From contig CANFCK010000018.1 in assembly GCA_947445035.1 (NCBI GenBank), positions 1-64,000 on the forward strand: a stretch of DNA of 64,000 bases, in the 5' to 3' direction. This DNA is from Deltaproteobacteria bacterium. GTDB lineage: Bacteria > Myxococcota_A > UBA796 > SXON01. The notes beneath the pieces were generated by a model. That model saw nothing but the letters and a program-made list of their open reading frames with translations, was not told the DNA's origin and did no database searches. The position numbers and the translations under genes were made by a program. This document shows, piece by piece, positions 45,169-47,503 of this stretch. The first letter of the stretch is position 1; every line of letters begins with the position of its first letter.

Positions 45169-47064
45169 TCAGGTTTCCTCGAAGTCGGCGTCGATCACGT
45201 CGTCGCGCTTTGCGCCGCCGTTGGGCGGAGGGCTTCCTGCCGGAGCACCATCCGGGGCGGCGCCGGGTGCACTGTAGGCCGCCTCTCCCATCTTCATACT
45301 CGCCGCCTGCAGCTTGTCGAAGGCACCCTTGAGTCGGGTGGCATCGTCACTGTCCAAGGCGCTCCGCGCCTCGCCGAGTGCCTCCTCGACGCTACTGACT
45401 TCGGCCGCCGGCATCTTGTCCTTGCTCTCGCGAAGGAGCTTGTCCACCTGATAGACAATATTATCCAGGTTGTTCCTTGCCTCGATGGTCTCCCGACGCG
45501 CCTTGTCGCCCGTTTCGTTCGCGGCCGCTTCTTTGACCAGCCGCTCGACGTCGTCCTTGGAAAGGCCACCGGAGGTCTGGATGGTCACCCGTTGCTCACG
45601 CCCGGTGGCCTTGTCCTTGGCCTTGACGTTCACAATCCCGTTGGCGTCGATGTCGAACGTCACCTCCACTTGGGGGGTGCCGCGGGGCGCGTGGGCGATG
45701 CCGTCCAGACGGAAATTGGCGAGCGACCGGTTGTCCTTCGCAAGCGGGCGTTCGCCCTGGTACACCTGCACGTCGACCGCGGTCTGGCCGTCCGCGGCCG
45801 TGGAAAACGTTTCGCTCTTGGAAACCGGAATCGTGGTGTTGCGCGCGATGAGGACCGTCAGCACGCCGCCGAGCGTTTCGATGCCGAGCGAGAGCGGGGT
45901 CACGTCGAGCAGCAGCATGTCCGTCACGTCGCCGCCCAAGACTCCGCCCTGCACCGCAGCACCGAGAGCAACGACCTCATCAGGGTTGACCGAACGATTC
46001 GGTTCACGACCGAACAACTTCTTCACTTTCTCCTGCACCATCGGGATGCGGGTGCTTCCGCCGACGAGCACGACCTCGTGGATCTCCGACGGGGTCAGCT
46101 TGGCGTCCTTGAGCGCCTGCCGACAGGGCTCCATGGTGCGTTCGATCACCGCCTCGATCATCTGCTCGAAGCGGCTGCGGGCCAGGGTGCGCTCCAAGTG
46201 TTTGGCGCCCGTCGCATCGCCGGCGAGGAACGGAAGGCTGACCTGCGTGCTCAAGCTAGAGCTAAGCTCGATCTTCGCCTTCTCGGCCGCGTCCTTGAGG
46301 CGCTGAAGGATCATCTTGTCGTTGCTGACGTCGATCCCGGTGTCCGACTTGAACTCCTTGGCGAGCCAGTCGATCAGCAGGTTGTCGATGTCGTCACCGC
46401 CGAGGTGGGTGTCGCCTGCGGTGGACCGAACCTCGACGATATTTTCGCCGACGTCGAGCACCGACACGTCGAACGTGCCACCGCCAAAGTCGTACACGAC
46501 GATGGTCTGGTCCTTCTTCTTCTTGTCGAAGCCATAGGCCAGCGCCGCCGCGGTGGGCTCGTTGATGATACGCTTGACGTCAAGCCCGGCGATACGGCCG
46601 GCGTCCTTTGTCGCCTGCCGCTGGGCGTCATTGAAGTACGCGGGCACCGTGATGACCGCCTCGGTCACCGCCTCGCCGAGGTAACGCTCGGCCTCCCGCT
46701 TGAGCTTCTGCAAAATCATCGCGCTGACTTCCGGGGCGCTGAACTCCTTACCGTCGATGTCGACGCGCGGGGCGCCATCACTGCCGCGAACCATCTTGTA
46801 AGGCACCCGCTTGCCCTCTTTCTCAGCCTCCTCCCAACGTAATCCCATGAATCGCTTGATGGAGTACACGGTGCGAGTGGGGTGCAGCATCGCCTGCCGA
46901 CGCGCCGTGGCGCCCACCAGTCGTTCGCTGTCTTTGCCGAAGCCGACCACCGACGGCGTGGTCCTCCCCCCTTCTTCGTTGATGATGACGGTCGGCGAGT
47001 CGCCTTCCATGATGGCCACGACCGAATTGGTGGTGCCGAGGTCGATCCCGATAATCTTGCCCAT
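45169..47064 (-). CDS. dnaK: Chaperone DnaK (Hsp70)
   Basis: The protein is 631 residues from ATG 47064 with GGAG upstream. The ATPase domain carries [56 protein letters not shown] and [16 protein letters not shown]. The substrate domain and helical lid follow. The C-terminus ends with the acidic tail [11 protein letters not shown] longer N-terminus (from 47148) has no support. The promoter is not clearly visible upstream of 47064; no CIRCE element (TTAGCACTC repeats) was found. Confidence 0.98.
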
Positions 47065-47297
47065 TGCAGGACTCCGCGCGGTTCCGCCACCGCAAAACTC
47101 AGTTTCTATGCGTGCATTCGAATCGACGCCCAAGGCGCGGGCGAGCACCGCGAAACGCTAATCCCCGAATCCCCTCCGTCAAGCGCCGGCCGCCCGCGCC
47201 GCCGTTTCCAACGCATTCGATAGGCCCCGCGGCCGCGCAGACAATGGGGCACTGCCAGTCCGCCGGACAGCGCGGTCGTGGACAGTCGGACATACGG
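47065..47297. other. dnaK upstream region, no gene seen
   Basis: This stretch lies between the dnaK start and the candidate small RNA promoter. Neither strand shows a convincing open frame with a ribosome site, and there is no CIRCE, tRNA or strong repeat. It should hold the dnaK promoter, which I could not assign with confidence. Confidence 0.5.
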
Positions 47298-47323
47298 GTG
47301 AAAAGTGACCCTTCTACCTATAT
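47298..47323 (+). promoter_or_regulatory. Possible heat-shock (sigma-32-like) promoter of the small RNA
   Basis: GTGAAA (47298-47303) and CCTATAT (47317-47323) are 13 nt apart, which is similar to the sigma-32 pattern CTTGAAA-N13..15-CCCCATNT. Matches are partial. A sigma-70 reading (-10 TATATG) has no -35. The predicted transcript start would be about 47331-47335. Confidence 0.3.
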
Positions 47324-47329
47324 GGCACG

Positions 47330-47463
47330 CCTCTTGCTACCGAGCACGGCGTCCCGGCGTGGGGCGCTCGTCTTCAAAACCAAAATATCCGTGCCCTGAC
47401 CCAACTACGCCCCACGCCGGGACTCCACCGCCGCCGGAATCCCCTGGCGGCGGTTTTCTTTTT
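47330..47463 (+). ncRNA. Candidate small structured RNA between dnaK and groES
   Basis: A perfect 16-bp stem pairs GTCCCGGCGTGGGGCG (47351-47366) with CGCCCCACGCCGGGAC (47408-47423) across a 41-nt loop. GCACGG (47344-47349), just before the stem, is complementary to CCGTGC (47389-47394) in that loop, so an H-type pseudoknot can form. The stem is followed after 3 nt by a strong terminator hairpin. The next gene, groES, has its own promoter further on, so the transcript would be separate. No open reading frame of note is present. The exact 5' end is uncertain. Confidence 0.55.
47427..47463 (+). terminator. Intrinsic terminator of the small RNA
   Basis: ACCGCCGCC (47427-47435) pairs with GGCGGCGGT (47446-47454), a perfect 9-bp stem with a 10-nt loop. 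TTTTCTTTTTGG follows. It lies just upstream of the groES promoter at 47475. Confidence 0.85.
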
Positions 47464-47474
47464 GGCCCCGGCGG

Positions 47475-47503
47475 TTGACACCCCGGTGGCCCGTGCGTAA
47501 TCC
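47475..47503 (+). promoter_or_regulatory. Sigma-70-type promoter of groES-groEL
   Basis: TTGACA (47475-47480) and TAATCC (47498-47503) are separated by 17 nt. The -35 is a perfect consensus. The 5' untranslated region would be about 70 nt and contains TGGCG / CGCCA arms (near 47523-47534). No CIRCE element is present. Confidence 0.6.

Follow-up and report, generated by a model that had tools for sequence, protein, structure and literature searches.

In the window, the whole 64,000-nt stretch of DNA analysed here, the gap between dnaK and groES probably contains a gene for a trans-acting small RNA (RNA-A), which would be transcribed from an enhancer-dependent sigma-54 promoter and would use an apical loop as its seed. 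We put the probability of this reading at roughly 0.7. Covariation of a long stem, an invariant promoter and loop core and a terminator of its own strongly support a stand-alone structured small RNA at this place. The preliminary description had proposed such an RNA with a length of about 130 nt. Its stand-alone, structured character is borne out by the covariation, the promoter and the terminator, and the predicted length is nearer 115 nt.

The predicted transcription unit

Pfam matches to HSP70, DnaJ, Cpn10 and Cpn60 in the window, whose source genome is incomplete (5.27 Mb, 60 contigs), confirmed dnaK, dnaJ, groES and groEL. The genes dnaJ and dnaK (dnaK start at 47064) lie on the minus strand, and groES (47583) and groEL lie on the plus strand. 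The dnaK-groES gap of 518 bp holds on its plus strand a sigma-54 promoter, a stem-loop and a terminator, which together make up the RNA-A unit (Table 1).

Table 1. Coordinates of the predicted RNA-A unit in the window
Feature	Position	Strand	Basis
Candidate enhancer (UAS) CCGGACAGCGCGGTCGTG	47263..47280	+	60 bp before the -24 element; 10/14 matches to CGCGACA-N4-TGTCGCG
Sigma-54 promoter TGGCACGCCTCTTGCT	47323..47338	+	Exact consensus match; no change in -24 TGGCAC or -12 TTGC across six genomes
Predicted small RNA RNA-A	47349..47463	+	Start +/-2 nt; 3' end set by the T-run; fold z -7.1
5' arm of stem	47351..47366	+	44% identity in six genomes, with compensatory changes
Apical loop, 41 nt	47367..47407	+	Predicted fold
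Conserved loop core CCGTGCCCTGACC, presumed seed	47389..47401	+	Near-invariant columns in six genomes
3' arm of stem	47408..47423	+	46% identity in six genomes
Intrinsic terminator	47427..47463	+	Terminator scan; 95% identity in six genomes

Inverted-repeat analysis confirmed the stem as a perfect helix of 16 bp (47351-47366 with 47408-47423), as described earlier, and showed that it lies within a 19-nt inverted repeat at 95%. The terminator reported to follow the stem was also found, as a hairpin and T-run at 47427-47454, 3 nt past the stem, by a scan that is not significant alone (1 found vs. 1.5 expected in shuffles). The letters TGGCACG-CCTC-TTGCT at 47323-47338 match exactly what we take to be the sigma-54 consensus, a match that is likewise not significant alone (0.68 expected with one mismatch allowed). 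The case for RNA-A rests on conservation. Conserved GTTGAC and GTGCGTAA blocks are present at 47473-47500, past the terminator and ahead of groES, and the two promoter-like segments (47473-47478 and 47493-47500) have mean identities of 0.90 and 0.92 in six genomes. The blocks are probably the groES promoter, which agrees with the earlier proposal that this promoter follows the terminator.

The sigma-54 promoter places the start of RNA-A near 47349, counted 12 nt from the C of the -12 element, a spacing that we presume to apply here. This position is the foot of the stem, and the RNA would thus have a length of ~113-115 nt. From 47349 to 47463, RNA-A is predicted to fold into a single long hairpin, which contains a weak inner helix of 3 bp, and the terminator. 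The energy of this fold is -61.8 kcal/mol (z -7.1), and none of 200 shuffles was equally stable. With the start near 47349, the 5' arm of a pseudoknot proposed earlier (47344-47349 with 47389-47394) lies almost wholly upstream of RNA-A. The segment 47338-47348 has 0 of 11 columns invariant, and in our judgement a single nucleotide could hardly bridge a 16-bp helix; the pseudoknot is thus not retained. RpoN is encoded in the genome of the window (PF04552, E 5.6e-60), and Hfq was not found in this genome, which is 92% complete. With a promoter at the right spacing and RpoN in the host, RNA-A has two of the features expected of a sigma-54-dependent small RNA, and is a putative member of that class.

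Conservation, covariation and distribution

A DNA search of 58 genomes, including that of the window, gave, apart from the window itself, five strong matches with E values from 1.6e-7 to 9.5e-42; they all belong to the same genus and are all located between dnaK and groES. Alignment of the six genomes showed that the -24 and -12 elements are 100% identical, the loop core (47388-47401) 98% and the terminator 95%, in comparison with 44% and 46% for the stem arms and 29% for the leader (47338-47348). Within the loop core, 13 of the 14 columns are invariant. This identity profile is the pattern of a promoter followed by a structured RNA with a presumably functional loop.

The covariance search of relatives suggested in the preliminary description extended the family over the order. 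Model R1, built from the window and one relative (G007), recovers the remaining four sequences of the genus with E values no higher than 1.4e-11. Model R2, comprising the promoter plus the hairpin, matches in 13 of the 63 genomes of the order. Model R3, built from 15 homologues, places RNA-A in 29 of the 63 at E<=0.01, and in 39 at E<=0.5, where some of the matches are doubtful. All 16 stem pairs vary on both sides in the 15-sequence alignment, with compensatory changes. The fraction of paired cells in this alignment is 88.9%, vs. 57.8% in shuffles and 35.6-39.9% for slid partners. Because the alignment was fitted to the structure, an alignment-free pairing check was made on 30 loci, namely those of the 29 genomes found with R3 at E<=0.01 plus that of G057. 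None of 5000 permutations paired the 5' and 3' segments as well as their own assignment. The own arm ranks first in only 8 of the 30 rows (median rank 4.5), as GC-rich arms pair with many partners. Single-genome folds of 90 nt are not always more stable than shuffles (z from -6.1 to +1.4).

Within the genus of the window, RNA-A is present in 8 of 11 genomes. Two of the other three have no groES at E<=1e-10, and one has only a copy of 59% identity; missing sequence can thus explain the gaps. In a sample of the phylum that includes the order, a match at E<=0.01 occurs in 28 of 377 genomes, and 25 of these belong to the order. The three outside the order are weak and have no loop core, and absence outside the order is a weak statement because 10 candidates per genome were scored in this sample. 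Each inspected genome has one credible copy of RNA-A.

The promoter and the loop core are kept across the 30 loci (CCGUGCCC in 24 of 30), and the stem is rewritten with compensation. The loop core contains GTGCCC in 27 loci, CCGTGCCC in 24 and CCGTGCCCTGAC in 14, and the other three loci keep GCCCTGAC; these counts are not independent, as the loci were picked by R3, which itself contains the core. Outside the 30 loci, three further ones resemble members by eye (L060 in G015, L064 in G026 and L065 in G029). In L065, the RNA-A-like unit at ~1969-2050 has the core CCTGCCCTGACC and lies upstream of groES on the opposite strand. Several candidates were dropped: L044, which adjoins an ORF resembling rpmE by eye; L093, with no promoter and neither dnaK nor groES; L127, where the stretch appears coding by eye; L146-L148, which have no core; and antisense matches of the palindromic stem, which are false, although one antisense row stayed in set A6 and enters the count made with it. 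The R3 matches inspected were those down to L145.

An upstream palindrome and a second candidate unit

The palindrome CGCGACA-N4-TGTCGCG, a candidate activator site, was first spotted by eye upstream of several RNA-A promoters. It occurs with at least 10 of 14 matches within 160 bp upstream of 27 of the 30 promoters, compared with 3.6 on average and 8 at most in 200 shuffled sets, in a test where the consensus comes partly from the same data, the shuffles are mononucleotide and kinship is uncorrected. Measured from the -24 element, the sites start ~60, 70, 81 or 91 bp upstream, so that one helical turn separates neighbouring positions; one outlier lies at -154. Taken alone, the phase statistic of these positions (R 0.77 at 10.5 bp) does not count as evidence, since 41 of 200 shuffles, which have few sites, reach the same value. 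In a genome-wide count over ten genomes the palindrome is not enriched (39 matches vs. 37 for the reversed control, up to one mismatch). The window's own site, with 10 of 14 matches, is at chance level when taken alone, and its only support comes from the position of the sites in homologues.

The palindrome search led to a second conserved unit, RNA-B, whose sigma-54 promoter is followed by GGAGACGC where the start is expected; further on, several genomes have a hairpin and then Ts. The pattern is present once per genome in 27 of the 63 genomes of the order (L167, L169-L172 and L173-L199; for example, L169:3025-3140), and the reversed control gave one match in all. The exact pattern is absent from the genomes of the window, G004 and G007, among others. 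The palindrome with at least 10 of 14 matches accompanies 24 of the 27 units, 23 of these at -101 to -116, a count that has no shuffle control. Among the downstream genes, only one has a Pfam match, to a FAD-binding domain. RNA-B could be either a small RNA or a gene's leader. At slightly less than even odds, RNA-A and RNA-B would together constitute an undescribed order-wide sigma-54 regulon, in which one activator recognises CGCGACA-N4-TGTCGCG and controls two unrelated Hfq-independent RNAs, with RNA-A acting via a near-fixed loop on a freely evolving stem.

Mode of action, alternatives and known systems

Conservation in many related species, together with the sigma-54 promoter and the near-fixed loop, indicates that RNA-A is probably an undescribed regulatory RNA. 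In the proposed mechanism, an enhancer-binding protein bound 60-90 bp upstream would, once activated by a signal, permit the sigma-54 polymerase to transcribe RNA-A. The stem would display and protect the loop, and the C-rich core CCGUGCCCUGACC would pair with mRNA leaders and alter their translation or stability, probably without Hfq.

In 12 genomes, the loop pairs with the groES leaders no better than with shuffles (mean z +0.34). A search of 13 genomes for exact complements of the core gave 18 matches, of which 10 are RNA-A itself and the other 8 are in no shared leader (8 vs. 6 for the reversed control). Pairing between RNA-A and RNA-B was unconvincing in 15 genomes (mean z -0.60). RNA-A could, as a decoy or scaffold, bind a protein via its loop or stem instead of pairing with mRNA. 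The absence of an mRNA target from the complement and leader searches favours such binding, and recognition of the loop by a protein would also account for a loop that is near-fixed while the stem changes freely. No direct evidence argues against this alternative, which we regard as unlikely. Two single complements were observed. In G007:C76, a segment of 16 nt (L112:1500-1515) is complementary to the RNA-A loop and lies inside an inverted repeat, and the ORF downstream (1645-2541) has no Pfam match. The groES leader of L050 (G021) holds GGGTCAGGGCAC, which is complementary to the common RNA-A core; RNA-A was not found in the genome of this locus, and the other leaders of group g2 do not have GGGTCAGGGCAC.

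The placement between dnaK and groES is common, not essential. Among the 30 loci, 21 are between the two genes, 2 are beside dnaK on a fetched stretch without groES, and 7 have other surroundings, these being all five f3 loci and two from f1/g2. A terminator-like hairpin of their own is visible by eye in several of these relocated units. In three of the five f3 loci (L121, L137 and L145), RNA-A adjoins a gene in which CusF and SCO1 domains are fused. The unit might be a cis element, a 5' leader with an attenuator or thermometer that controls groES-groEL, as the window and 20 further inspected loci carry it upstream of groES and in the orientation of that gene. However, the unit ends in a terminator that is followed by a separate conserved promoter-like pair before groES, and the loop shows no pairing with the groES leaders. 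The 7 loci away from groES and dnaK, some with a terminator-like hairpin of their own, also argue against a cis role, which we consider improbable.

The heat-shock neighbours would suit a small RNA under sigma-32, and the preliminary description had pointed to a weak sigma-32-like promoter and to heat-shock control. However, evidence for sigma-32 or for heat-shock control was not found; the conserved promoter belongs to the sigma-54 type, matches exactly and is invariant in six genomes, and it is also kept where RNA-A sits away from heat-shock genes, so that a sigma-32 RNA is very unlikely. A conserved DNA element or a short peptide gene is scarcely credible: short ORFs cross the region, but the stem covaries, the distance from the core to the start varies from 22 to 56 nt, and a 2-nt loop indel between the two closest sequences argues against a small protein, in keeping with the earlier statement that there is no convincing ORF.

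In comparisons with known families, a trans-acting RNA-A finds no close counterpart in Rfam 15, which has no family at the gathering threshold for it and identifies only a tRNA in the window; the best overlap below threshold is Scr3202 (25.2 bits vs. 52). We know of no described regulatory RNA for this uncultured order. The Qrr RNAs of Vibrio are sigma-54-dependent trans-acting small RNAs that exist in several copies and depend on Hfq, whereas RNA-A has one credible copy per inspected genome and Hfq was not found. The accessible portions of the open-access literature contain no description of RNA-A, subscription journals being mostly outside this scope, and in the available extract of PMC2704228 an intergenic region next to groES of Pelagibacter is no more than an entry in a list.

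According to the portions available of PMC5568312 and PMC5684412, Pxr of Myxococcus xanthus and other myxobacteria is an intergenic RNA of ~108 nt with an apparent sigma-54 promoter and an essential loop, from a deltaproteobacterial lineage without hfq. RNA-A resembles it in size, promoter type, intergenic location, a presumably functional loop and a deltaproteobacterial lineage in which Hfq was not found. As described there, Pxr is located between nla19 and a NADH dehydrogenase gene and has three stem-loops, whereas RNA-A in the window has dnaK and groES as its neighbours and is predicted to form one long hairpin plus the terminator. The small RNA GlmY of the Enterobacteriaceae also has a sigma-54 promoter, which the enhancer-binding protein QseF activates at upstream sites, but the QseF consensus given in the available part of the source is TGTN12ACA, not CGCGACA-N4-TGTCGCG (PMC6075780), and glmY adjoins the qseEGF genes. 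With sX13 and similar RNAs, RNA-A shares a C-rich loop as the presumed contact (the extract of PMC3771888 mentions 'C-rich loop' and 'Hfq-independent'); it differs from them in its one large loop, longer mixed core and sigma-54 promoter. We regard RNA-A as a new family of a known kind, resembling Pxr and GlmY, in a comparison that covers the published description of Pxr.

If the reading of RNA-A is true, a small-RNA family would be added to an uncultured order, probably with a partner under the same activator. It would also offer a clean case in which the promoter and the loop are fixed, the stem is rewritten and the RNA has moved in the genome. The promoter, the upstream site and the loop core make the putative activator and targets directly testable.
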